Notes under the pieces: model-generated | Seen by the model: only the letters and a program-made list of their open reading frames with translations | What the model was told of the DNA's origin: nothing | Database searches by the model: none | NCBI GenBank assembly: GCA_950295325.1 | Contig: OX485806.1 | Location: 31,310,001 to 31,374,000, forward strand | Length of the DNA stretch: 64,000 nt | Direction: 5' to 3' | Origin: Polytrichum commune | Lineage: Eukaryota; Streptophyta; Polytrichopsida; Polytrichales; Polytrichaceae | Made by a program: the position numbers and the translations under genes | Shown here: in pieces, positions 3,262-64,000 of the stretch | How positions within the stretch are numbered: position 1 is the first letter of the stretch | Layout of the letters: the number at the start of each line of letters is the position of its first letter

Positions 3262-3640
3262 GAGGTATGTATATATATGTGGGTGCTATTTGGTGCATTT
3301 CTCATCTTCTCCAACTTCCACAACAAAACGTGTGTTGCATGAGCAAATCTACGACGAAACATCATGTGCAAAAATTGGATTGAAAATCGGGCCTCCCTGG
3401 ATTTAGTTATGGTTATCATAAGTGCATGTTTGTTGATTTCTCAACTGGGTGCATAGGTCGTCCCAGTTGTGTTCACTGTTGAGTGTCGAGTAGGTATTGA
3501 CATTTGAAGACGTAGTCCAATCTTTGTTTAAACCTTGTGTGTTTGTGATTTTTTGCTCTTTGATTCTCACCACACCCACATACCAATCGAATGAGGGGTT
3601 TGATTAAGGAAACGGGCCACTTAAGACCCATTTGCTTTTT
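3262..3640 (+). repeat. MITE family A, copy 1
   Basis: A non-coding element of about 375 bp whose ends are degenerate inverted repeats. The family 5' end reads roughly TAAGGTATGTGGGTG and the 3' end GACCCATCTACCTTA. Internal landmarks shared with other copies are GATTGAAAATCGG, TTAGTTATGGTTATC, GTGCATGTTTGTT, GACTATTGAGTGTAGAG, AGTCCAATCT and CACTTAAGACCCAT. A nearly full inverted copy lies at 4740-5116. The size and terminal repeats suit a MITE; its superfamily is not certain, since TAA/TTA at the ends could be a PIF/Harbinger target site or part of the element. Confidence 0.7.
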
Positions 3641-4739: not shown

Positions 4740-5116
4740 TAAGGTATGTGGATGGGTCTTAAGTGGCTCGTTTTCTTAATTGGACCCCTCTATTTGATTG
4801 GTATGTGATTTGGTGAGGATTAAAGAGAAAACGTCATAGATACACATGTTTAAAAGAGATTGATATTAATAACTACCCTACACTTAATAATTAGAACAAC
4901 TGGGAGGACTTATATGCCTCCAATTAACAAATCAACAAACATGTTCTTCCCATAACCATAACTAAATGAGAGGAGGTGATAGGTCCGATTTTCAATCCGG
5001 TTTTTACAGATGTTTCATCTTAGATTTGCTAATGCAACATGAGTTTTGTTGTGTAAATCTAATCCATAGAACTTGGAGAACATGAATAACAAACCAAATA
5101 ACACCCACAGACCTTA
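4740..5116 (-). repeat. MITE family A, copy 2 (inverted relative to copy 1)
   Basis: Reverse-complement copy of the element at 3262-3640. It opens with TAAGGTATGTGGATGGGTC and closes with AACACCCACAGACCTTA, so the terminal inverted repeats are well kept. All the internal family landmarks are present. With copy 1 it forms a large inverted pair enclosing the TA-flanked MITE at 3761-4014; such a pair could fold into a long hairpin if transcribed. Confidence 0.75.
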
Positions 5117-5229
5117 ATACATATCTTTCAGTAATTGTGACTCATGTTAGGCTTCAAACCACACATCACGAATACAAGAATACCAAAAGAGATTGGAGCA
5201 TTCAATATGTGTGGGTTTGAAAGTATGAG

Positions 5230-38095: not shown

Positions 38096-39961
38096 GTGTG
38101 TGAAATAATAAGTGTGCTTAATGCTAGCATAGTCCTTCCCTTGATTCCCAACCAAAGGGTGAAGAGACATTGCCTGAATAATGTTATATGCTTCTACGGT
38201 TGGATTGGACAACATCAAGTATTTTGACTAAAATTTTCAATACTTACAAATACTTACAAGCTTTTTCATGCTAATACATTGTTGGTGTCATTCAACTTAT
38301 AACTTACTACCCCAAAACTGGCCTAACAATATCATATCTCATTTGCCCTAGTTTTGGGAGTAATTACGAGAAATTGCATCAACTTGGTTTCATTCAAATT
38401 TGTCATAACAAACCTTGGAAGTTGATAGTGGTGACATCAATGACAAATATTGTAGCTAACATTGCTTGATGATTAATAATCCACCTACATTTACTGGTAT
38501 GGGCCACCAATGAACGGCTCCTACCAGCAGGGTTCACTTAATGCTCCAATTTGATCAATGAGAGCTAGTGAATGTAACCAATGATGGTAGAAATTGTTCA
38601 CCAGTGACCCAAGCCATTAATGTGGTGGCTATGAGTTAACAACGCCGATTTTTTTGGGTGCCCCACAAACATTTTGACATAACCCAAAAAGTAGAGGTGA
38701 AAAGAAAAATGTGGGAGCCAAATTTCTATGTGACATCCATTAATGTGAAGATTATTACCAGGTTATGATCCAAGTCAGAACCAGAAATTTTGGCTACATT
38801 GTCTAATATGACATTACATGTAATGATTCCAACACTGATTAAGAAATAAAAACGACGGGTTACCAGATCTCCCTTGGCACACGGATAGTGGTGCATTTCT
38901 TTTTAATTTATTTTAAAAATACTCGGCAAATTTTGAGGCATTTTTAATGTTTTTAATTATAAATTCACGATTACAGTCAATCCATGTCAATAGGGCAAAT
39001 ATAAACACGCTCAACTTTGCCATTTGTTGCATATTACCATATAGCATTAGTACATTCAAACTCAATGGCAGTGTCTGAGCCTTGAGTGTTGCCACATGAA
39101 CTGACAAATATTGGAATACATAACGCACCACATGGCACACCGAACAAGTCGTGAATGATGGTTTGCATTCGCAATGTCTTCATTCTTGGATCAATACTTG
39201 GACAGAGAAGAGCTCGAAGAACTAATCATAGAAGAGGGTAATGTTTTCGACAATGATTTGCCATAAAGGACCTCACGGATTGAGGTCTTCGATGATTTTC
39301 AATAAAAAAAACATTTGAAACATTTAAAAACATTTTATAATGCCGCCTCTGACCTCTAGAATAAAAACTGCAACACTACACACGGCACATTGCTCAATAA
39401 TTGAGCTTGTTATGGAAATTAATGAAGAAAGAAAGTTGCTGCTCCAAGGAAGTGACCCCATTAAGTAATTTGAAACAAAAAATCAGCAGGAAGTGACGTG
39501 TGTACAGAATTCATTTTTTCATGTATCATGTGTCTTCAAGGAATGAAGCTCTTGATTCAATGCATAATTCAATGCAAGTTAGAGCTGCGTGTGCTCTCAA
39601 AGACCTTCTGGAACCGATCTCCATGACCTCGTCAGAAAATTGTAGGATCTCCTTACTGCTCCAGGCCATCCACACTCTTCAAGCATCCTTACGACCTAAC
39701 TGTGAAGTTGAAGAATGAGTTCTGATTCAGCCGCACACAGGCAACATTCCCCTTTCGAACGTGTCGATTTTGTCAGGGATCTACAAACTATGGAGAGAAG
39801 GAAGTATTCGAAGATTATATTCAACCCGAAACGGCCTGCTGGAGTTTGGTGATTTGTACAGATTGCACCTTGAATTGCGAAGATGACGTGCTTGTCAAAA
39901 CTCTCAGAGAGGGAGATTTATACCCAAGCTGCAGAAATTTGAGGAAGACCCAAAGATTTAG
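38096..39961. other. 3' flank of PME-B, no further gene seen
   Basis: This includes the 3' untranslated region of PME-B (below 39962). No clean minus-strand AATAAA is evident close to the stop. Short frames at 38015-38218, 38913-39140 and 39500-39718 have no domain I recognise. Confidence 0.45.
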
Positions 39962-42900
39962 TTAGTGGCGCTGGTTATGCCGGGTGCTCTGTTGAATCCA
40001 ATTCGCGCCATCGATAAAATCGAGCTTTATGAATTCCTCCACTTCTTCATCATTGAGCTCGTGTGACCACGGAACTCGCACCGCCCCCTCTGCTCCCGGC
40101 CCAGAGCATTTGTATTGTGCATAATAGGAGGTGCTGCAAAATTTTCAGGCAGATCGATGACAGTTAGTTTCAGTTAGAAAGATGAGTACTTATCATCAAC
40201 TGCATAGAAAAAGAAAGAAAGAAAGACAAATGAAAGAATGCCGACTCTGATGCTATCAAGATGAGTGTTTATCAGATAAGTACAAAAGAAAGTAGAACGA
40301 TGACCCAATGTTATCACCGCCAACAGTTATGGTGTTGTTATTTTCTGCGAGTTCATATCAAATGAGTGCAAATGACTACATGGTCTTAACATTGGTTCTT
40401 TTACACGGGATGATTTTATGGTTTACTCCATTAGTAACTTTTCAATCCACGTTCATAGATTCAATGGGAAGACCTTGCAATTACCGTAGTGTATGCTACA
40501 TTCACCTTTGTGTCTAATAGTGGACCTCTCTTAACAATATTCCTTAAATATTTAGAGAAACAAGATTCTATAAGGGTGCCACATCATTGGTAAGATGACT
40601 ATTTACAGTCTTCCTAAAAGAAGTTAAATGTACTTTCCCTCTCACATTAGATATATAGTGTTGGTGACACTACACTGTGGTTTACAATTAGTATTGAGCA
40701 AGACAATTAGAATTGGTGACATTGAATATCATATTTAGTGTAACATACATGTCCTACACAATCGTCCCACGTCGAGGAAAGAAACATGCAAATCTATCAT
40801 GATTGTGCTAGATTTGCAGATTATCTAGTTACATAGGACAAGTTTCCAATGACGTAGGTCACTTGCCTACGACTCATATGCTTGTAGTGTAGTGGTCATG
40901 ACTTGACAAGTCCCTGCCTCAATTCTCGTAGCATCATCCCTACCTTCCATACCCCTCCCTACCCCTTGCTCTCATTGATTGTTGCTATGTAACCCCTAAA
41001 TATTTATGAGGCTCGAATACCAGCATTCGAGTCCCAAGCAATCATCTTGCATCCGTGAAAGAAATATGCAAATCTACCACTATGATAGATTTATAGATTT
41101 CCCATTGATGCCGCGCGGCATGAAAATTGCCCATGATTCAAATGATTGTAGTCCTCCCAAACCAACGACCCCAAATAGAATAAGCCCCACATATAACACC
41201 ATTCAGATTCATTTCTGTCCAGCAATTGTCAGAAAATCTCAAGACTAGAAGAAGACGACAACAACAACAACAACAACAAGACCGTTGAGGCGAGAAAACA
41301 TTAGAGCCATTTCACCCATTAAACAAAAACGAATCCAAATGCAAATGCAAACTTGTGAACTTACTTATGCACGGTTGAGTCTCCGAAATCCGTCCATCCG
41401 GCAGGGATGATGATGTCGTCCATGTAGGTTCTCACGAAGACAACGCGAGAGGATGAGCCCCATGCCCGGCCAAGCCACACGAGGCCGTGGCCCATAATGG
41501 TGCAATCGACAAACACAAAGCCCGAGTTGTCCTCCGGTTGCCTCCTTGCTTGCGCCGTAATAGACCCGGTCGTCTCGGCTATGACATGAATCTCGCAACC
41601 CTATCACCACCACCCTCCCATGCTTTAGGCCCGGGGTTCTTCTAGAAAACGCGGTGCAATGAAAGGTGTGATTCAATTCAATGTTTTATAACACAAATTT
41701 ATTAAAGCATGCACACAATTGTAGGGTAATGGAAATTCATTACGAGAATATACTCGTTATATTCTAAACAAGTGCACAATATTTTATAGTGCTAACCACC
41801 TCAAATCTTGTCGACATGTAATATCTTCATTGGACACGAGCATGTCGATTATAGATTATAGCATGTTTTTGACACAAAATGGTCATCACTATGTTTGATG
41901 TTGTACATGTGTTGCCCTTGCTCAAGTTGTAGCAAGGTGTTCTCGAGCTAGTACTGAGTCGCGGCGAACATTATCCATATAGGTTGTCATCTACTGAAAT
42001 GTTGTAAACAATATTCCAAATTTGCCTTCATGTGAACCTAAAGTAGGGGTCTGTGACACTCTCAACCAATCAAAATCTAAGGATTCTCAAGAGCCATGGC
42101 TTAATGGCTTTTGTCTAAACATGCACTGAGTTAGCAACTCGAAAATAATGTTCATCTTAAATTTAGCAGCTCCAACCCATGTTCTAAAGATGTTGACCCT
42201 TATGGGTGCTAGCAATAAGGTATATGGGTGTTATTTAGTTTGTTTATCATGTTCTCCAACTTCTACAATAAAGATTTACACAACAAAACTCGTGTTGCAT
42301 GTTTATTGGAAGTGCATGTTTGTTAATTTCTTAACTACTAGGATACGCATGTCCTCCCAATTGGGTTCACGATTGAGTGTAGAGTAGTTTATTAATATTT
42401 GAAGACGTAGTTTTTCTAATTGCATAGACGTTTGCAAGTTAGAAGTGACTACTTACCATCCAAAATTTAAACGTTCAAGTTCTATTATGTAGAAGATTAT
42501 AATAGGAATGCCAATAGTGGTCTTGAGGGGCATAAATTTAGAAATAAAATTAGGGCTAGTTTTTTGATCGAACCTCCACTCAAATCGTCTCTAAATGCCA
42601 AATGTTACCCTCGTTCAAAAGAGGGGCAATATACCTACTCAAATCGGCTTACAAATGTTGAAACCATTATTTTGTGATTTTTGGGGGAAGCTTTGCAATT
42701 TTGGGCAGTGGTGCCACAACTACGCATCTTCCATATGGATTTACACCCACCAACTCATGTCCAACTAAAAATTCCAATGGTAGATGCTTAGGATACGATG
42801 CGTTTGAGTGTCATGGAAAATTTCAGGTCAATTGGGAATCATTTTGCACATAGGGCTCAACATCAAAAACATGTTTAGGATATGCTGCCCCTAAATCTTG

Positions 42901-45900
42901 GAGGTGACAAATGTCAAGCTTTGGTTCATAGACCGGTTTCATTGTAAACCAGTTGAGAGCACACTCCCATACTTGAATGAATCCAAAAATAGCTAACATT
43001 GTAGATTCAAGATTTATACCAGTGGCAGAACATAGCAAACTTGAACACGAACAAGAGGAGTAGTTGAAACAATCAAGAAACCATCCAAACTAGTGTCAAA
43101 GGAGTCATAGCGAACTCCATAGAACATTAGGGGTTAAGACCCATCTAGCTTAGTTACTAACCCGGGACCAAACCACAGAAATCATCAAATATAAATGTAT
43201 GTCAAATTCTCAACCCTCTCATCAAATCTCCGATACAGCACACTGAAACCTCTCATCTTCCATACATGTGATGCGCACATGACTTGGGTCTGAGGATTTC
43301 AGTGTCTGATAGAACATGGTGCTGGTCATGAAGCTTACTTCATAAAGAGAGCGTCCGTCCCCAAATATGAAGTCAATCGATCCCTCGATGAAGCAGTTCT
43401 TGAAGTAATGCCGGCCTGCATAATCGAACAGAGTGTCTTGTGCACCGTAAAACCCACAATCGTAGAACGCGGCCTTGTCCCCACAGATCACCAATGCCAC
43501 TGCTTGTTTCCCTAATTCTCCTGGCTCCGGCATCGCTGCTAAGTTCTGCATTCAAGATACAACATCATCTGCATGTTCTAATACATAAAGGGAAATGTAT
43601 CAAAAACGATGCAGACTCTGTGCCTATGATCGGGGAGAACCGGCAGTTAGTTAAAGATGAACCGGTTGAGTTTGAGAAATAACCGGTTGAAGTTCAAGAC
43701 TGCAGGAAAATTACCGATCATTTTAGAAGAATTTATAGAATATACCCCAATTTAACAAAGGAAAACCGATGGATGTCAATATGTGACCGGTTGGACTTGC
43801 AAACACTAGGATCTCAACCGATTATGACCACAAAATCTCCCCGATCACTGCTCTGTGCCTACGTTATATATATGGTAATTTTTGTGAGCACTTTGATCAT
43901 TTGACTTCGACCAATCCAGATGACGGTATTCGTAAACTGGATACCTCTGCTAACTATTCACCTCGGCTTCTATTACACCGTTTATGGTATTCAGTGTCGC
44001 TATGCTGTGACTTGTTACTTAGAATGCAAGATTTTACCAGGTTGAATCGTTTATGTTCTATGATGTCAAAACAACATACTCGGCCTTTGTTGGTAAGGAG
44101 TAAAATCTATGGCAACAAGTCAAAGGATATTGTAATTTTTCAAATAGTAAGTAACATAAACAGTTACTGTAGTGGAACTTCTTTAACGATGTCTTATTAA
44201 CATTCAGAAAATTAAAGAATGATATAAAGGTGCCACATCATTGGACAAAGATGATTACACGTGTATATACAATTCAACAGACTACAAGTTCAATCTGCCT
44301 CCCTCCATCCCTTTCTTCCCTCTTCTTCCCTGGACCTTGGGGTCGGCCTTTGCTCTCATAATCAAAGTGGTCAAGTAAACCCTGGGAAGTTTCAAGAACG
44401 CGAAAAAGGCAGACTCAGGCATTCAGATTACATATTGACTGAGGAAAAATAGGAGACGGGGAAGTAATAGTTGAACACAATCAAATTCTACATCGATGGC
44501 TTCGATGGTTCAATGACATCCTTCCATTGAGTTTCGATGGTCACGATTGAGCAATGGATGTGTACATGACCTAATACTTCCCATTCTCAATTCTCCCTCC
44601 CTTCTATACCCACCTCTCAATACACCTTGCTCTCATTGGTTGCTGCTATTTAAGTTCTACAATACCGGAACACCTTTACCACTTCGGCATGAATTAAACT
44701 ATTTTTTTTAGAAAATCAATTTTTTTGGACATTGTGTATTAAAAATCTCAAAATTTCCCTTTTTTTCCGGGATTGATGAACATAAAAATTATAATTATAA
44801 TACGTATATTCCTATAAGTAGCCGGCGTGGTAAAGGGACTATGGGTATTTATGGGGGAAGTATTGACCCCAAAATGGAATACCAACATTTGATGGAAGGA
44901 GTGAAATGCTGATGTATGAGATTCTACATGCATGGAAACGCAACATTTGTTAGGCGATTGAGTCTTATAATTGGTAAGGCTCGTGTATTGAGAGATGAGG
45001 CTGAGTACGTACTTTGAATCCCATGTCCATCGCCGTGAAGTGATCAGCGTAGATAGAAACGGTGGCGCTGCGTTCCGTCCCACCGCTGTTCTCGGCTGTA
45101 TCATTGCCGGTGATGATGGTAGCGTTCATTCCCGCTCCTTGCATCGTGATGTGTGGTTTAGTACTCGGGATGATCACCTTCTCCCTAAAAACCCATCCAC
45201 AAATACCGCAAACTTCCCTCTCAAACTACAGCAACATTTCGCAACAATCGATGAAAATGGTGAAGAAATTATTCCGTGCGTTTCTTGCTGTTTTGACATC
45301 AGGTTTTAGACTCCCCCCCCCGGGGTAGAGTGCTGCAGAGGGGACCCAATCTCTCTCTCTTGCACTTTGTTTCTTGGGGTTAGGTTGCTTGACCAGTTTT
45401 GAGGTTCCTGCAGAGGAACTTGAAGGTACACCCCACATGTTTGGGGTTTTTTAAAACAAAAAAAAACAAAAAAAACAATGAGCAGGTAGAAGCAATGGAG
45501 AGATTCAGAGTCTACATACAAGGCAACTGATTGGAATTTGAAACTACGGGTGTAAAGCCAACCATTTCCAAAGAATGAAGAGAATAATATCATGTGGTTT
45601 GCTTAAATCATGAACTCACTCATAGATGCTGGCTTCGATTTGAATAATCGTCGACCCGGGTTTTTATGATAAACAATGAGCAAGTAGAAGATGAGGTTTC
45701 GAGTTTGATTAATAACTCAATTGTAAATAATCGTTTTGATTTGATTTGAATGATCGTTTGCCTGGGTTTGATACTAAACAATGAGCAGGGAGAAGGCAAG
45801 ATTGCGAGTTCGATTAACTCACTCACAAATGCTGGCTGCGATTTGAATAATCGTTGATGATAAACAATGAGCAGGTAGAAGATCAGATTTTGAGTTCCAA

Positions 45901-46391
45901 TAGCTCACTGGTAGATGCCGGTTTCGGTTTGAGTAACGTTTGCCTGGGTTTGAAAACTAAACATTGAGTAGGGAGGAGGCAAGATTTTGTGTTCAATTGG
46001 CTCACTCGTAAATGCCGGCTTCGATTTGAATAATTGTCCGCCAATTGCTATTCTCCGGTGCGGCATTCACAGCTGCCTGCACGGTCCGAAAATCGCCCGC
46101 CCCACTTTGATCGACCCGGAGGAAGTAAGCCGATCGGCTGGAGGACGTGGGAGACCCTTGGCACGGCCTCGCAAACGTCTCGTTGTTGTAGACTTCGGGG
46201 AGGTTATAAATGGGCAGCGGTAATTCCGTCAAGTTTTTGAGTGCGGGCTCGGCAGCCCCATCGGCATCTTTTTTGAAGAGCGTGGGCGGCAAGAGAGGAG
46301 TGAGGGTGGAGGGGGTTGTGAGCACGGAGAGGATGACCACCATGGCCAGAACTCCAGAAATCCAAAAACTTATCAGGAACGCAGGACCCAT
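39962..46391 (-). CDS. PME: PME-B, pectin methylesterase, complete
   Basis: Secreted or membrane-anchored CE8 pectinesterase of about 390 residues. Exons (minus): 46391-46006, 45184-45013, 43545-43339, 41600-41365, 40133-39962 (TAA at 39964-39962). All junctions are GT/AG, phases 2, 0, 0, 2, as in the other two genes. Residues 6-30 are strongly hydrophobic (signal peptide or anchor); 31-85 form a linker with paired Pro. The catalytic domain starts at [18 protein letters not shown] (about 90-107). Key residues: Gln200 and Gln222 (oxyanion), Asp223 (acid/base), Asp244 (nucleophile, DFIFG), Arg300 and Trp302 (LGRAW). Exon 5 encodes [12 protein letters not shown] and ends with an extra basic tail (STRHNQRH) absent from PME-C. 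Exon 4 begins GCE where the paralogues have NCE. Intron 2 contains a hAT-like MITE and a family B MITE, and intron 1 carries the exon-end array. Length and motif spacing are normal, so it is probably functional. Confidence 0.95.
40200..40230. repeat. A-rich (GAAA)n run in PME-B intron 4
   Basis: GAAAAAGAAAGAAAGAAAG simple repeat within the intron upstream of exon 5. Confidence 0.85.
40874..40995 (+). mobile_element. possible tRNA-derived SINE with pyrimidine-rich tail, in PME-B intron 4
   Basis: GTAGTGTAGTGGTCATGAC fits a Pol III box A neighbourhood and GCCTCAATTCTCG lies about 40 bases on at a box B position. It continues CCTACCTTCCATACCCCTCC and TTGCTCTCATTGATTGTTGC. A diverged relative at 44555-44655 in intron 2 keeps TCTCAATTCTCCCTCC and TTGCTCTCATTGGTTGC. 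No target duplication found. Confidence 0.4.
41258..41280. repeat. (CAA)n microsatellite in PME-B intron 4
   Basis: A short run of ACAACAACAACAACAACA upstream of the exon 4 donor on the coding strand's intron side. Confidence 0.85.
42210..42420 (+). repeat. MITE family A fragment in PME-B intron 3
   Basis: Opens TAAGGTATATGGGTGTTATT and keeps TATCATGTTCTCCAACTTC, AACTCGTGTTGCATG, GTGCATGTTTGTTAATTTC, CCTCCCAATTGG, GATTGAGTGTAGAGTAG and TTTGAAGACGTAG. The right third is missing. It is in the opposite orientation to the gene. Confidence 0.65.
43624..43850 (+). mobile_element. hAT-like MITE (family M), intact copy in PME-B intron 2
   Basis: A 227-bp element between 8-bp direct repeats CTCTGTGC (43616-43623 and 43851-43858). 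Ends are inverted repeats: left CTATGATCGGGGAGA, right (reversed) CAGTGATCGGGGAGA; 12 bases are perfect (43627-43638 against 43836-43847). An 8-bp target duplication and a CAGTG-type terminus fit the hAT superfamily. The bases CTA follow both repeats, so an 11-bp reading cannot be excluded, but copy 3 supports 8 bp. ACCGGTT words recur inside, possible transposase-binding sites. It lies within an intron of an apparently functional gene. Confidence 0.85.
43966..44187. mobile_element. MITE family B, copy 3, in PME-B intron 2
   Basis: Left end TATTACACCGTTTATGGTAT and right end (reversed) CCACTACAGTAACTGTTTAT; both then continue into a GxTACTTACTAT/GTGACTTGTTAC-type block and the TTTCAAATAGTAAGTAAC end. 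Matches the terminal regions of 24070-24296 (CACCATTTATGGTATTTxGTGTC). Confidence 0.6.
45452..45476. repeat. A-rich tract in PME-B intron 1
   Basis: Runs of A interrupted by single C between 45452 and 45476, preceded by a poly-C/G block at 45311-45322. Simple sequence. Confidence 0.8.
45605..46040 (-). repeat. five-unit 97-bp array spanning the exon 1/intron 1 junction of PME-B
   Basis: Exon-end-like segments start near 45612, 45711, 45816, 45902 and 45999, a spacing of 86-105 bp. The rightmost is the real exon 1 end ([10 protein letters not shown]) plus the GTGAGC donor. The others read on the coding strand as [11 protein letters not shown], a worn copy, [11 protein letters not shown] and a diverged [10 protein letters not shown], and most are followed by GTGAGT-like donors. 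AACAATGAGCAxGxAGAAG separates units. In the exon frame each copy meets TGA right at the donor (GAG TGA G), so use of an internal copy would end translation at that point. Confidence 0.85.
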
Positions 46392-46439
46392 TTAAATATT
46401 ACAGCAAGAATTACACAATGCGAGGAGGAGGAAGAGGAG

Positions 46440-47260
46440 GAGAAATATTGAAATTACCCATATCTCACGAAATTAGGGCGGCACTCTCCCCACTAATGAG
46501 TTTTGACTGCGTTAATGACAACAAATTGAGCACAATAATGTCAGAGTGTTGATAAACGAATATGGCATTAAATCCACTGGACTCCAGTAGTGCCCCTTGC
46601 TGGATGATCGAAAAGAATTCAAGAGAATTCATTGCTATGTGTGTTAATCAGATTTTCTGGGATGAACTCATTCAACGATAGACTTCATGGCTGAACCGAT
46701 TTGATTGCAGTCATAGCTACTAGTTAACGTGCTGAGAATGATCTCTACTTTTCCATTCCATAAAATGAATCTGCTCTACACCGCTGCATGCAAATTGGCC
46801 ATATCTCGCGAAATTAGGGCAGCACTCTTCCCCCTGCAGGATGATGGGAAAATTCAAGAGAATTCATTGCAATGTGTATTTAATCAGATTCTCTGGGATT
46901 AACCCATTCAACAATAGTCGTGGCTGGATTGACTCGATTGTAGTCACACGTGGTAGTTAACCTGTCGAGAATAACCCTCTCATTCTTTTCTTTTCTTTAC
47001 GAAAAATGAATCTGTCATAAACTGCTGCGTACAAAGTGAACATATCTCGCAAAATTAGGGCGGCTGTCTCCCCCTGCTCGGTGATCCAACGACCTCAAGA
47101 AATTTCGTGGCTAGCTATGTGCAATCGTATTCTCTGGAAATAACTCAATCAAGGATGTTAACGGCTTATTTACTGATGCATGAAGTAGTTCGACTACATT
47201 CATAGGCAGTTAGCCTGCCGAAAATAAAATCTCTTCCCCACCAAGAATGACAATCTGAGT
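46440..47260. repeat. three-unit tandem repeat in the 5' flank of PME-B
   Basis: Units start at about 46459, 46799 and 47041 with CATATCTCxCGAAATTAGGG(C) followed by CTCTCCCC-like bases, then GATGATxxGAAAATTCAAGA, GAATTCATTGC, ATGTGT, AATCAGATTxTCTGGGAT, ACTCATTCAACxATAG, GATTGxAGTCA, TAGTTAACxTG and GAAAAATGAATCTG. The first unit is about 340 bp, the second about 242 bp. They begin about 50-70 bp upstream of the start codon and so occupy the proximal promoter or 5' untranslated region. Confidence 0.8.
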
Positions 47261-49607
47261 TTTCTTCAAAGGAGAATCTACCGGAAACTGCTCTGCAAAA
47301 CCAGTGCCCTAGGATTCAAACAAAGGTCTGGGCGCCAAGAACGATTTTTCTCTTAACTTCACTTCAGCTAAGTCTCCAATCACTTGATGCACAATCTCGA
47401 CGAAACTGAATAGCCATCTCTGGGGAGAAGTAGCACAATTGCTGCACAAATCTACAATCACTCGATGCTTCCATGATTCAGGATGCGAAATTTCCCCACC
47501 TCCCGGGTGGATTGCAAATTGATGTGTGTGAAGATGGGATGAGCATGTAATATCCTACTTTTGAGTTAGTAGCAGTTTGATTTTTTATTTTTTTCCTTAA
47601 ATTTGATCCTTCCCGTGAATTTCTCCCCACCAGCTGTTTGTGTTAGATTACTTGCCACCGCTTTCGGGGTTAGGCTTACCTTAGGTTGTTACAATTGGTT
47701 AATGTGGGTATGAAGAAGAAGGCTCACATGGCCCACTACGTATAAAGGTAGATGGTGCTAAAACCAATACCCTAAAAACTTGCATAATAGAATACATATT
47801 GATTATGAGAATTTTTACAACCTTAACATCAGATTTCCATGTTGGTTTTGGATCATTTACCAATAAATTTTTGAATCTTTACATCTTGGAGTCAAATAAG
47901 ATGTATGTTGGTGGGTTGGAATACGTGTCAATTGTTAATTGAGTATCGTTTACGGGCAGTTATGACAAGTTCTTTCAATCCCTTTTTAGTGTTGATTTGT
48001 GTAGACTAACGAAGAAGTGCCTATAGTGGACATTTGGAGCACTTGAGAGCTTTAAATATGTTTAAAAGAGGTTATAAAAAAATTCAAGGAATTAGCAGGT
48101 CCATAAATAGGTTAGTGCACTAGAGTGGATGAGAACTTTAAATCGTGCAATTTAGGTGTGATCAATGAAAGTCAAGATTCTTTTGTAACTCAAAATGATT
48201 ACATATCCCCATCACCTAAAGTGGACAAAGTTAATCATTGACATCTTGTGTTTTTCAACCAATGAGTTGGGTTTTCAATTCTTAGAGTAATACAATTAGT
48301 GTTCATGTTGAGATACGCATGGGATGTCCACTTAATGTAGCGAACCAAAAAGCACGATCATTGACTAATATCCCCCACTTACATTTACCATGATCATTTC
48401 TCAGATCCAATTTTCAGGTATAATTTTCATTTAACTAGAAAGCTCATCCAAAAAGAATGAAATTGGCCTTCAAAACTTGGGTGAAAGTTTGAACTAGATT
48501 GTCCCAATTTTTTACTTTGAAAGAATAAAATAAATAGTACAACACATGATGGATACAATGTTTTGCCACATAGAACTGGCACAAGGTTTAACATGATCAT
48601 GTATTTGTTTTCAAAAATTTCATATCAATTCCAAATATAAAAATAAGGAGGTCGAATGTACCCACTCCAATGTTTTTGATTCTCTACATTAAGTGGACCC
48701 CCTAGAGAACTACGTAGCTTGAATTTGGGACAAATATGGGTTCGGAGTTGGGGTCACTAACGGAATCAAATGCTTCTACCTTAGTGCGAGATGCCCTTGA
48801 AAAAACTCTATATTGCTTCATCCACATTCGTGTTGAAACAAAAGAAAAGGGAGCTAATATAGGATAAGCACTCGACTCATTGGTTAGACTTGGACGATTG
48901 CATGTTACCAACATTTGTCATATTTTCACCCTTTTTGAGGTTGCACGGTTTCATTGTGTGCCTCAAAAGTTTGCCTCCAAATTCTCTTCCATCATTCCGT
49001 AGTAGTATTGTATTTTTTTTTGGTATTGTAAAAAAAAATCAAATTCAACATCAATATCAAACAATAAAAAAAAAAAACATTCTTCTAGAGCTTTGATATA
49101 CGACCCTCATAATGATGTCAAATGATGGTACATAAACAATCGTTCTACTTATGAAAGGAGTTTAAGGAAAGGATTTTTAACCCATTTCCAACTAATTGAT
49201 GTTTACTTGATTTTATTCAGTTGAACGTGATTTGCTCTCTTTTCATGTACAATATATTGTAGTCCCATGACGGTTTACATGCCAAACCATTGTTGAGAAA
49301 CTAGCATATTTTCAAGATTCCATTCAACAAACAAAATAATTTCATCAGATTATCATTTTTTTGAAATGAAGCATTGTGACAAAAAAAAAATTCAAAAATC
49401 TCGACAAATCCTAGAATAATATAATAAACTTCAAAACCACCATGGTACAAAGACAACATCTTTGTTGTCAATGTCATTATTTCAATTAGCCAATCAATTT
49501 TTTTTTGGTATGAAGTTACTCCCTTCACTCAGTCACACATTCAGGCTAAAATTGTCAACATGTTCAGAGCTTTAAAACCAACTCGCTTTTACTCAAGAAT
49601 AGTGTGA
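47261..49607. other. 5' distal flank of PME-B, gene-free spacer
   Basis: No gene is recognised. Several A- or T-rich runs (49014-49075, 49380-49390) occur. Minus-strand frames at 48702-48914 and 49301-49528 are short and show no domain. Confidence 0.45.
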
Positions 49608-59500: not shown

Positions 59501-61092
59501 TCTTCGTCACGTCACGCCCCGCGCCTTGCAACGTGATGTGCTGCTTGGATTTCAGCACAACCACCCTTTCCCTGCAAGAAGTAAAAATGTGCATATGAGA
59601 TCACCTAGGCTCCAAGAAAATTCGATTTTTCTACCTTGACATGACATGAGATGGTGCGATGTTCTCGGACACAAGTTGACAACTTTTATCCAAATCTCAA
59701 ACTATTGAGAGCTTGGGAGCCAATCCTCTTGGAAGATCTCAATCACTTTGAGAGTGAATAAAGTGGCCATGCTCGCACAAACTTATTGAATTATGAAACA
59801 AAGTAAGCTAGTTAGAATTCGTGACGAGCTAAAGAATCCTTGGAAGTACATGGGAGTGGACCGATATATGAAGACTCTCAACACTCCTCAGCGACCTCCT
59901 TGACGTCAATTAGTATTTTGGCCATTCATTCCCATTATCAAGAGGCGCCAAGGTGAGCTCAAACTCTTAATGAGTTTTGGGTTTTTTTCTAAGCGACTTT
60001 GATGAGGTAGCTTAGGATTTTGACCGAGAGCTTGGCATAGTCTTTCCTTTCACCATCAAAGTCAGCATAGATGCGTTGGAAAACCGGTAAAAAGTTCAAG
60101 CTCTGAAGTTGATATCTCATGTATTCAGTAGAGTTGAGTGAACTCTTTAATCTCTCAATTTCTGAGCTCCTCTCGAGCTCTAATTATTTTAAAAGGCCCA
60201 ACCTAAGGTCCCTCAAAGATTGACAATGCAAAAACCTTCACTGTTGGGTACCATATTGAAACTTGATTAATCAGCACTAGTAATATTACCCTCTCCAGCT
60301 CCATCCCAAAAAGATTTACTAAAACAAGAAGAAGAAGAAGGGATCCACGTCATGACCAACTTTTTATTATCGGGTTCTTCGAAGTTTGAGATGAGATGCG
60401 ATACTACGTACTCACACACAGGTGCCGGCGTTCACTTTGATGGTCATAAAGATGTTGTGAAGCAGACCTAAGGTCCCGCAACGTTAGACAATGCTAAAAC
60501 ACACCCTCAATGCACATTGGGTACCATATTGAAACTTGACTCTTCGGCACTAGTGATAGTATCCCCCTCCAGCTCCATGCCAAAAAGACTTAGCAAACAA
60601 AAGCAACAAAAGCAAAAAAACAAGTCATGATCCACGTCGTGACCAAGGTTTAGTGAAGTGCGAGGTATATCATGGAATATTGGGAAGAAGAACTGACACA
60701 TAGGTGCCGGCGTTCACTTTGATGGTGACGGGGCTCTTGTTGTGAAGGGGAACTGCATTGATAGCTTCGTTGATGGTTTTGTAGTTGCCTGCTCCACTCT
60801 GGTCCACCACGATGACCAACTCTCCCACTTTACTCGCCAGCTCCTCCACATTACTGCCAGCGCTCTTGGCAGCACTCTCATACGCCGCATGCTTGGCTCC
60901 CACACTCTCCACCCATGCCTCGAAGCTGGCGATCACCTCCGCTCTTGTCCCCGGCACTGCTTTCTTAGCAGCACCAGCAGCAGCAACAGGTTGAAGAGCA
61001 GAGGAGGTCAACAGCACCAGAGCCACAGCCATGACGGCAACTTTTGCCACTGTGGACGAGGAGGAGCTCAGCATCGTCGTCATCCCAGCCAT
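56567..61092 (-). CDS. PME: PME-C, pectin methylesterase, complete
   Basis: Secreted CE8 pectinesterase of about 387 residues. Exons (minus): 61092-60698, 59571-59400, 58599-58396, 57648-57407, 56717-56567 (TAA 56569-56567). Intron phases 2, 0, 0, 2. The exon 1 donor is GTCAGT and the exon 3 donor GTGCTA, both weaker than average; the other donors are standard. The start sits in AACAATGGC, the plant initiation consensus. Residues 12-38 form an Ala/Val/Leu-rich signal peptide. A short charged helix-like stretch (45-88) precedes [16 protein letters not shown]. Key residues: Gln202, Gln224, Asp225, Asp246, Arg304 and Trp306 (LGRAW). Exon 5 gives [20 protein letters not shown] and ends [15 protein letters not shown]. 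Intron 1 contains a family J repeat and the exon-end duplication; intron 4 contains a 5S-derived element. Probably functional. Confidence 0.95.
57067..57112. repeat. 24-bp tandem duplication in PME-C intron 4
   Basis: CCACTATGATTGAGTGACT is present twice in tandem (57067 and 57091). It lies in the tail of the 5S-derived element, where copy 2 (54228) has a single version. Confidence 0.85.
57121..57246 (-). mobile_element. 5S rRNA-derived element, copy 1, in PME-C intron 4
   Basis: On the minus strand a 126-bp stretch follows plant 5S rRNA end to end: GTTGCATCATCC, ATGGGAACTCCGAGGTTAAG, CCGCCCTAAGGCCGG, AATAGTACTCGGATGGGTGA, CC, then CTTGATTTCCGGTGCACCC. The internal Pol III control regions (GTTAAGC..., GATGGGTGACC) are recognisable. 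Sequence continues beyond the 5S part in both directions and the 3' tail is shared with 54350-54400, so this is a dispersed element and not a 5S gene. Cassandra-type miniature LTR retrotransposons carry 5S sequence in their LTRs and are widespread in vascular plants; a 5S-headed SINE is the alternative. It looks old. Confidence 0.75.
59225..59252. repeat. (AAAAT)n in PME-C intron 2
   Basis: AATAAAATAAAATAAAATAA pentanucleotide run. Confidence 0.85.
59690..60190 (+). repeat. dispersed repeat family J, copy 3, in PME-C intron 1
   Basis: Contains TCTAAGCGACTTTGATGAGG, TAGCTTAGGATTTTGACC, GAGAGCTTGGC, CACCATCAAAGTC, AAGTTCAAGCTCTGAAG and GAGCTCCTCTCGAGCTC, matching 37080-37540 and the reverse of 9956-10560. 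Opposite orientation to the gene. Confidence 0.55.
60195..60759 (-). repeat. two-unit duplication (period 282 bp) spanning PME-C exon 1 end
   Basis: Units 60195-60463 and 60469-60759 share GACAATGCxAAAAC, TTGGGTACCATATTGAAACT, TxGGCACTAGTxATA, CTCCAGCTCCATxCCAAAAA, ATCCACGTCxTGACCAA and the exon end GGTGCCGGCGTTCACTTTGA (60421 and 60703). The right unit is the real exon 1 end ([10 protein letters not shown]). The left copy, inside intron 1, reads [10 protein letters not shown] and is followed by GTGAGT, a stronger donor than the real GTCAGT. Confidence 0.85.
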
Positions 61093-61203: not shown

Positions 61204-64000
61204 GTGGCCGGTAGTTATTTAGTAAGTGGACCTGAGCCAACCAGCTTCCACCATTTAACCCTTGATAGAAATTTATCACCCCTTTCGACACAAGCACCTA
61301 ACGGATCCACTCACACTACTAATGAAGTGCACCACAGCACTCACTTTTCCCGAATGGCTTCAGAAAGACTAGGTAACCTACCAACATTAAATCCTGGCCT
61401 AGAATCCTATTGATATTCACTTCAACACAAGCAGCTGATGAACCCTGAGGAGCTTGCCAGTATTTGCCAAGCTGATCCCACTAACACTACTAAAGTGCAC
61501 CACAGAACTCTCTTCCCCCAAAATGACTTCAGAAATACTAAAGGAGCTCCACATCCCAGCCATTGCAGGAAACCAAATCTTCATGAGTTCCAAATCTGTT
61601 GTCACAAGAACAGAAATTATACTACATTCTCCAAAATCCTACCCTCGCCAGAATCGTACCACTCTTTTCAGCTCAAGCAGTTGGAACTCCATCAGGAGCT
61701 TGCAACCTCCCTAAACCCTCCCAAATTTTGCCACTGGCAATACTGAAGTGCAGCACAAAACTTTCCTCCCCCAATGAAAACAGAAATACTTTAAAATCAT
61801 TTGATGCTCTGGTCACAAGTAACCAATTATTTAGCTATAAAACTGAATCCTGTGTAGAATCCTACCCCTTTCAGATCTAGTAGCTGATGAAATTTGAGAA
61901 CCTTGCCAGAATTGGCTACTCTGGTCCCACTAGTTATCACTCCTTAAGTGCAGCAGGCCCCATTCATGAGCTAAACCCTGTGTAGAGTCCTACCTCACTT
62001 TCAACTCAAGCAGCTGCAACCCCAGGAGCTGACAACCTTCAAGAACGTAACCGAAAAATCTGCCAAGCTAGTGGCACTGTCACCACTGAAGTGCAGCACA
62101 AATCTCCCCCAAAACAGCCTTCCCCCAATGACAACACAAACACTAGACTCTCCTGATGGTAACGCAATTCTTGAGATATCAAACCTTTCAACCCTGACAT
62201 CCAGAATCCTACTACTTTTTTCAGCTCAAGCAGTTGCGACTCCATCCTGAGCTTGACACAACCTCCCTAACCCAACCCAACTTTGCCAAGAAAGATGCCA
62301 CTGTCACTAGTAAATTGCAGCACAGAAACTTCCTTCCCCCAATGACAAGAGAGCACTCTAATACTTCGAAAGTTTGGATTCTGCTGACTGCAAGTAACCT
62401 TTGCTAAACCCTTGAGCTAAACCCTGGCGAGAATCCTACCCGTCTTTTCAGACAAGCAGTTCCAACTCCAGGAGCTTACAACCTCGCTCACTTGGCCCAA
62501 AATCTGCCAAGAAGGTGCCACTTTCACTACTGAAATGCAGCACAGAACTCCCCTTCCCCCAATGAGTGACAGAGATACTAGACTCTCCTTTTGAGGACCC
62601 AATTCTTGAGCTGAACCATTAAACCCTGTCTAGAATCCTACCCCGCTTTTCAGCTGAACCAGCTGAAACTCGTGTCAGAAATTTGCAACCTCCCTACTGA
62701 GCCCCAAATTTTGCCAAGAAGGTGCCACTGTCAATACTAAGACTCCCTTCCTCCAATGACAACAGAAGCACTAGACTCTTTAAGACCTCAAATTCCTGTT
62801 GCAGGTAACCCCATTCTTAACCTGAACCACTAAATCCTCCCTAGGATCCTACCTTTAGTACTTTCAGATCAAGAAGCTGAAAATCGACTCAGAAGTTTGC
62901 AACCTCCCTTAGAACTTACCCAAAAGTTTGCCAAGAAGGTGCCATTGTCAAATCTACTAAAGTCCACAACAAAACCGCCTTTCTCAATGACAACAGAAAC
63001 ACGAGACTCGAGTCTCTGGATTCTCTTGTTGCAAACAACCCAATGTTGGAGCGCAAAAGCATTAACCCCTGTCGAGAATCCTACCCCACTTTTCAGCTCA
63101 AGCAGTAGTAACACCAGCAGGAGCTTGCAAGATCCCTAATCCAACCCAAAATTGTCCAAGCTGGTCCCACTGTCACTACTCAAGTCCAGCAGCACTGAAC
63201 TCCCCCAAAACTCCAAGCTTTCCCCAATAACAACAGACACACTAGACTCTCCTGATGGTAACCCAGTTCTTCACATAAACCATTAAACCCTGTCTACACA
63301 TATGTGCAATTCTACCACTTCTTCCAGATCAAGCAGCTCATGAAACTCGAATTAGGAGCTCTGCAAGCAGCAAAATTTCTAACCTACCCCTAAAAAATGC
63401 CAAGAAAATGCCACTGACTCTACCAAAAAAAATGCCAAGAAGACTGTCACTACTAAAGTGCAGCACAAAACTCCCAGCTTCCCCTCATCGACAACGGAAA
63501 CACTAGACCTCAAGTCTTTGGATTCTCCTGTCACAGGCCACCCAATTCTTGAGCAAAACTATTGCTCCCTCTCCACTTAGAATCCTACCTCATAACTTTT
63601 CAGCTCAAGCAGCTGAGACTCGACTCAGGAGCTCAAGAAACCTCTCTATATTACCCCAAAATTTTGCCAAGATGGTGCCACCGACTGACACTACTAAAGT
63701 GCAGCACAAAGCTGCCACATTCCTCCCAACGACAACAGAAACATTATGCGGACCTCAAATCCTTGGATTCTCCTGTTGCAGGCCACCCAATTCTTGAGCT
63801 AAACCATTTCTCCCTCTCTACTTAGGCTCGTACCCATCCCATGACTTTTTAGCTCAAGCAGCAGAAACTGGACTCAGGAGCTCGACAAACCTCCCTACCT
63901 TACCCCGAAATATTTGCCAAAATGGTGCTGCTATCACCACAAAAAGTGCAGCACAAAACTGCCTTCCCCCAATGACAACAGAAACACCACAAGACCTCTC
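61204..64000. repeat. satellite-like tandem array, about 225-bp unit, upstream of PME-C
   Basis: About 12-13 diverged units run off the right edge. TTTTCAGCTCAAGCAGxTG landmarks occur near 61422, 61670, 61873, 62000, 62220, 62446, 62650, 62865, 63093, 63325, 63599 and 63850 (spacing 127-274, mostly 203-251). Other unit words: GGAGCTTGCAACCTCCCTAA, TTTTGCCAAGAAGGTGCCAC, TGTCACTACTAAAGTGCAGC, ACTCCCTTCCCCCAATGAC, AACAGAAACACTAGACTCTC, AGCTAAACCATTAAACCCTG and TAGAATCCTACC. The first unit lies about 110 bp upstream of the PME-C start codon. Pro/Ser/Leu-rich frames inside are by-products of the repeat. Confidence 0.9.

Follow-up and report, generated by a model that had tools for sequence, protein, structure and literature searches.

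A tandem array of exon-end and splice-donor copies in intron 1 of a pectin methylesterase gene of Polytrichum commune

The PME-B gene and the array in its intron 1

The pectin methylesterase (PME) genes PME-A, PME-B and PME-C lie in the window analysed here, a stretch of 64,000 nucleotides of Polytrichum commune (positions 31310001-31374000 of the source contig OX485806.1, G000:C4, in a genome of 408 Mb and 64 contigs). PME-B is a five-exon gene on the minus strand, and its intron 1 begins with five imperfect tandem units, U0-U4, each combining ~31-37 nt from the 3' end of exon 1 with the donor and ~40-60 nt of intron sequence (Table 1). An earlier note on this DNA had described the recurrence of the exon-1 end and its donor inside the intron, and had suggested that the arrangement may be a route to a new intron, mark a duplication-prone junction and work as a brake at the level of splicing. 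The observation is confirmed here, while the interpretation is only partly supported and turns out to be half right.

The five exons join into a single open frame of 390 amino acids, with the stop ending at 39962. In a phmmer search the joined protein matches 1gq8, which we take to be carrot pectin methylesterase, at 1.6e-51 over residues 93-384, and all four of the stretches QAVAL, QDTL/QDSL, DFIFG and LGRxW, presumably the catalytic stretches of the enzyme, align with it. Because of this open frame and the aligned stretches, PME-B looks like an intact gene. By its exon matches it belongs to the plant-type family described by the profile PF01095: in a genome-wide search exon 2 scored 41.0 bits, exon 3 61.8 and exon 4 42.2, and exon 1 came close to the cut-off of 27 (26.6 bits, or 27.1 with its neighbours). 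Scored singly against the profile, exon 1 stays below the cut-off (23.7) and exon 3 lies above it (64.8).

The units are head-to-tail copies with the exon end, the donor and the intron start in the same order, and the spacings from donor position to donor position are 97, 86, 102 and 101 nt. The array had been placed at 45605..46040, which does lie within it; the real span is about 46045-45470, since ~85 nt that do not belong to the repeat (about 45604-45520) interrupt U4, whose intron part reaches down to near 45470. Four donors had been read near 45615, 45820, 45905 and 46005, and they are present, the exact first intron bases being 45619, 45822 (overlapped by 45826), 45908 and 46005. Five copies of the junction do not make five donors: U3 has TT in place of GT, so that four donors are left in the array.

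The expected periodicity near 97 bp is borne out by a self-comparison of 45440-46060, where the strongest offsets are 183, 97, 105 and 86 and where 313 windows of 30 nt match; none of 300 dinucleotide shuffles gave more than 2. An ungapped repeat search found exon-end copies at 45610-45654, 45813-45857, 45899-45943 and 45996-46040 together with a 20-nt intron piece that occurs five times, whereas Tandem Repeats Finder listed one two-copy stretch only (45768-45940, period 86). In the unit alignment, with 37 compared columns for the exon-end part including the donor and ~40 for the intron part, U0 and U2 are 82% identical, U2 and U4 84%, and the other eight pairs 66-76%. As the strongest offset, 183, is the sum of 97 and 86, the array is in part built as a higher-order repeat of two units, and the closeness of U0 to U2 and of U2 to U4 would fit growth by a two-unit block. 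An assembly artefact was considered as the source of the array and is unlikely, as the units differ by 16-34%. The RNA fold is unremarkable (z-score -1.24, with 12 of 100 shuffles equally stable).

Table 1. Exons of PME-B and parts of the array in its intron 1. Positions are those of the window; the donor position is the first intron base, and the slash marks the exon-intron border.
Feature	Positions	Strand	Content	Basis
PME-B exon 1	46006..46391	-	ATG at 46391; phase 2 end	open reading frame
PME-B exon 2	45013..45184	-	acceptor TTTTTAG/GGAG	
PME-B exon 3	43339..43545	-	QAVAL, QDTL, DFIFG stretches	
PME-B exon 4	41365..41600	-	LGRAW stretch	
PME-B exon 5, including stop	39962..40133	-		joined open frame
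U0	45949..46045	-	native exon-1 end, donor GA/GTGAGC (46005), first intron stretch	unit alignment
U1	45862..45948	-	exon-end copy, donor CA/GTGAGC (45908)	unit alignment
U2	45757..45861	-	exon-end copy, donor GA/GTGAGT (45822), overlapping TT/GTGAGT (45826)	unit alignment
U3	45665..45756	-	eroded copy, TT where donor GT expected (45720)	unit alignment
U4, exon-end part	45605..45664	-	donor GA/GTGAGT (45619)	unit alignment
Non-repeat insert in U4	45520..45604	-	~85 nt, borders approximate	excluded from unit alignment
U4, remainder	45470..45519	-	intron part, holds 20-nt copy 45473-45492	lower border by eye

The donors were scored with a matrix built from 18 paralogous exon-1 donors whose site is fixed by homology; on its scale the consensus AG/GTAAGT reaches 9.50 and the training donors range from 1.88 to 9.27. 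With the -3 column the scores are 6.40 at 46005, 7.25 at 45908, 5.55 at 45822 (5.64 at 45826) and 5.55 at 45619, and without it 4.99, 5.84, 6.29 (6.14) and 6.29, respectively. The -3 column mostly mirrors the Tyr codon, and the rank order of the PME-B donors is therefore not robust; a fair statement, in line with the earlier notion of competing donors, is that the three surviving inner donors are predicted to be about as good as the native one. Eight GT sites in or at the start of intron 1 score at least 3, three of them outside the junction copies. The in-frame TGA that had been seen directly after the copied exon end is there, and so is the truncation expected from it: the native donor gives the full PME-B frame, whereas each inner donor leads to a stop after residue 129, which falls short of the junction between exons 1 and 2 by 93, 175/179 or 382 nt. 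Under the usual decay rule a stop counts when it stands about 50-55 nt or more before an exon junction, and by that rule inner-donor mRNAs would be decay substrates.

The inner copies were also considered as cassette exons, by hand for U1, where an acceptor-like CCCAG lies ahead of a stretch of 35 nt that would shift the frame; there was no evidence of use for U1. In the upstream region of PME-B, imperfect tandem units of ~240 bp occupy 46451-47174, from ~60 nt off the start codon. Plant splice sites are described as generally recognised by intron definition (PMC11420051), which brings no decision between the PME-B donors.

Junctions of the paralogues and local repeats of the genome

The place of intron 1 was compared among 22 PME loci, namely L044-L063, of which L051 is PME-A at the window start, together with PME-B and PME-C. 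They were picked from 110 PF01095 exon matches by their five-exon-type pattern, with other PME types excluded, and their exon limits were taken from profile or tblastn matches rather than from transcripts. In all 20 loci with exon 1 located, PME-B and PME-C included, a GT stands two bases past the codon of a G-x-Tyr/Phe motif; exon 1 stayed unlocated in L048 and L057. Exon 2 begins after AG, one base before EK codons, in 14 of the 22 loci by pattern search, in a scan that covered 29 loci and gave none in the 7 beyond the 22; in PME-C the start of exon 2 at the EK codons was read by eye. Paralogues that lack the array thus carry intron 1 at the identical place and in the identical phase, and since position and phase are common to them, the array arose inside an existing intron and made no intron. 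Judged by this comparison of paralogous sequences, intron 1 is older than the array.

At 5 of the 75 donor junctions of these loci, the span that follows holds a copy of the exon 3' end: PME-A exon 3 (19 nt only), L053 exon 1, L056 exon 4 (four matches), PME-B exon 1 (three matches) and PME-C exon 1. Exon 2 is unlisted in several genes, so that some of the spans extend from exon 1 as far as exon 3. Exon 5' ends were copied at 1 of 75 junctions (L048, 73% over 33 nt), and minus-strand copies were absent in these loci for exon 3' ends and for exon 5' ends alike (0/75 each). As a control, exon ends were compared with the introns of other genes, each span being ended where the next exon in the list begins; this gave 4 matches in 600, three of which pair an exon-2 query with an exon 1-exon 3 span and probably hit an unlisted exon 2, so that the true chance rate is probably lower. 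With uncut spans, whose targets could reach homologous exons, the control gave 2/58. Intron-internal 44-mers, with spans from the exon list used for that count, have a downstream copy in 35 of 360 cases (junction versus intron interior, p = 0.51). The junction copies are therefore real, yet no commoner than ordinary copies of intron sequence.

Outside PME-B, the case most like it lies at the exon 4 / intron 4 junction of L056 (5406-6085 in gene orientation, on G000:C3), where, in the same genome and family, an exon 3' end and its donor likewise occur five times. Its five units of 133 bp are 93-94% identical and repeat the last ~50 nt of exon 4 with the donor (GTAAGC four times, GCAAGC once). 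It differs from the PME-B array in the length of the unit, in the junction concerned and in a pyrimidine-rich, acceptor-like TTTCAG that is present in four of the five units, the third having TTTCTG. In PME-C the exon 1 / intron 1 junction (minus strand, 60201-60754) is duplicated in tandem with a spacing of 265-285 bp, and a 35-nt piece across the exon end is copied at 94%, the last exon base being 60698 at the native site and 60416 in the copy; the native donor GTCAGT scores 2.95 and the copy GTGAGT 5.76 without the -3 column (2.22 and 5.02 with it). Intron 1 of L053 (630-1130) holds about three units of ~181 bp with decayed copies of the exon 1 end, one found by BLAST (81% over 36 nt) and a second by eye, and no GT was seen by eye at the matching place. 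The higher identity of the L056 units makes that array the younger one. A substitution rate of 7e-9 per site per year, which may not be that of this plant, would put 75% identity at roughly 22 million years and 94% at roughly 4.5 million. As the PME-B array is old, it is less likely to vary between accessions, and the L056 array is the best place to look for variation in copy number.

To describe the background, a local repeat pair was defined as two copies within 1.5 kb that align over at least 40 columns at E <= 1e-4. The window holds 41 direct and 3 inverted pairs, against none in 45 block-shuffled tiles, and the direct pairs span 10,407 of its 64,000 bases; these rows overlap: three come from the PME-B array and about seventeen from the region above 61 kb. 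In the 130 kb of L044-L063 there are 46 direct and 3 inverted pairs, with a direct pair in 16 of the 20 loci, and in the 71 kb of 20 further PME loci there are 22 direct pairs and 1 inverted pair, with a direct pair in 10 of the 20. The background loci are all PME loci, and with L051 overlapping the window and L028 contained in L062 the repeat sets are not fully independent. Among intron spans of 200-4000 nt, direct repeats occur in 18/62 and inverted ones in 3/62. Decayed local direct repeats abound in the non-coding DNA sampled from this genome.

Several single repeats and copies were seen in passing. A large decayed tandem array (offsets of about 216, 446, 553 and more) fills 61381-63998, upstream of PME-C, and PME-A has tandem repeats at 343-811 and 1336-1733, one of which holds 15 nt of an exon end while the other lies directly next to the intron 1 acceptor. 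One of the three inverted pairs listed in the window joins 3263-3631 and 4752-5126 at ~71% over 396 columns. Elsewhere in the genome, identical PME match scores at G000:C2:27736431-27738902 and G000:C30:19459-21930, the former on a contig of chromosome size and the latter on one of 28 kb, perhaps reflect a duplicate contig or a recent copy, and a cluster of peroxidase matches at G000:C2:23124919-23368252, several with identical scores, suggests very recent gene copies.

Origin of the array and the role of its inner donors

We consider it likely that the PME-B array is a by-product of local tandem duplication that contributes at most splicing noise. A short segment over the exon 1 / intron 1 junction would have been duplicated in tandem and then have expanded to five units, in part because a block of two units was itself duplicated. 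The chemistry may have been repair of nearby breaks or nicks, followed by unequal exchange or more repair. While splicing kept to the outer junction, the first duplication across the exon end would do no harm; selection on the protein would keep this outermost, native copy, while the inner copies may drift as intron. Local duplication, which is common in the non-coding DNA sampled here, would in PME-B have run over a splice junction, as it seems to have done in a few other PME genes. Since only 46005 gives an intact enzyme, the native donor is most likely still used, and unproductive transcripts from the inner donors are probably a small fraction at most. Tandem duplications are reported to be the most frequent insertions in rice, where they are enriched at 50-200 bp and ascribed to the repair of adjacent nicks (PMC7971508), and breaks with complementary 3' overhangs give rise to small tandem duplications in mouse cells (PMC8355091); by analogy, units of 86-133 bp would fit a repair-type duplication.

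Some observations weigh against this account. Although the six pairs among U1-U4 taken together suggest no excess conservation of the copied exon end (163/222 positions identical there, 184/237 in the intron part), the exon end is somewhat better kept when U0 is compared with the four copies (115/148 against 113/156) and in the pairs U0-U4 (31/37 against 27/39) and U2-U4 (34/37 against 30/39), a comparison with few sites in which the intron part of U4 is disturbed by unrelated sequence. The GT is retained in three of the four inner copies, and two inner donors are GTGAGT, nearer to the usual consensus than the native GTGAGC. The copied junctions include a slight excess of exon-1 ends (3/19 against 2/56 other donor junctions, p = 0.10). 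Furthermore, tandem duplications in rice fall off steeply with size, from 70% of events at 125 bp to 5% at 200 bp (PMC7971508), and the many longer repeats here, of 180 bp and more, therefore fit that mechanism less well.

A functional reading would turn the retained donors into a brake: the inner donors would compete with the native one, their share would set the level of PME-B mRNA, and their early-stop products would go to nonsense-mediated decay. The similar scores of the inner and native donors agree with it, as do the stops 93-382 nt upstream of the exon junction and the pairing of a weak native donor with a better copy in PME-C; unproductive splicing has, moreover, been described as widespread among plant circadian-clock genes (PMC3403997). 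On the other hand, signs of constraint on the inner copies are not consistent and one of them has lost its GT, the survival of three GT in four seems, on a rough judgement, compatible with drift at ~25% pairwise divergence, and the exon-end copies of L053 lack a GT at the matching place, so that we regard such a brake as unlikely. Its extension to the family, in which donor arrays made by tandem duplication would be a recurrent regulatory form and the number and strength of decoys would set productive mRNA, is still less probable. More improbable than the single brake, though rather less so than this extension, is a fragile junction, some trait of PME exon-1 ends that promotes duplication there. 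The duplicated exon-1 ends of PME-B, PME-C and L053 speak for it, and to this slight excess the earlier suggestion of a duplication-prone junction can still appeal; against it stand the p value of that excess, an overall junction rate (5/75) that does not exceed that of the intron interior (35/360), and spacings of about 97, 265-285 and 181 bp, which differ and hence point to no common unit.

Repeated insertion of a mobile element or dispersed repeat has very little to commend it. In its favour, the intron part of the unit has stretches loosely resembling a tRNA-type promoter box, as an impression only; the copied part is PME-B's own coding sequence, the unit was matched nowhere but at the PME-B locus in searches of the genome DNA (in which the best candidates were scored and very common words skipped, so that rarity is not proved), and 39900-47300 contains no Rfam match. 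The birth of an intron, with the duplication supplying its splice sites as in the model of tandem genomic duplication, is rejected: in form the array does correspond to a junction-spanning duplication, but intron 1 stands at the same place and in the same phase in the paralogues and hence predates it, and with this the route to a new intron falls away for PME-B. We thus return to local tandem duplication, and the mutational process behind this unusual-looking splice-junction array is probably an ordinary one.

Known systems and the value of the gene series

That introns can arise through tandem duplication is recognised (PMC3443670). In a potato RdRp gene, a tandem duplication across an intron-exon boundary gave rise to a new, RNA-supported intron, and a second one, of 83 bp, lies inside intron 1 (PMC4974935). 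Both are cases of a plant gene in which a segment with a splice boundary was duplicated in tandem and the copy inherited splice signals; in potato a single copy of the acceptor side was made and a new intron resulted, whereas in PME-B the donor side is present in five units, the intron is old and none is new. More generally, the duplication of an exon end brings along a donor-like site, as in intron gain by duplication, but no new intron bounded by the copies is present in PME-B, where the intron pre-exists. The short repair-type tandem duplications of rice, which are local, head-to-tail and commonest at ~50-200 bp, resemble the PME-B units and are a likely source of the first duplication (PMC7971508); the rice cases are recent differences between lines, whereas the PME-B array is old, with ~25% divergence between its five units. 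In titles and openings of abstracts from open-licence literature on duplicated junctions, intron growth or creation and PME splicing, no description of a five-copy donor-junction array was found among the matches listed, which is weak evidence of absence.

If donor arrays were, against our expectation, a regulatory form of the family, duplication would shift the number of decoys stepwise; the four donors of PME-B, the weak native donor and better decoy of PME-C and the four GT donors in the young array of L056 would be examples. As a biological system the PME-B array is probably ordinary, and its interest is that of a natural experiment in donor choice: within one family and one genome there is a natural series of genes in which one exon has a single donor, two donors or as many as four, with copies of varied age and strength, and this series makes the choice among near-identical donors, and the tolerance of introns for duplicated junctions, directly testable.

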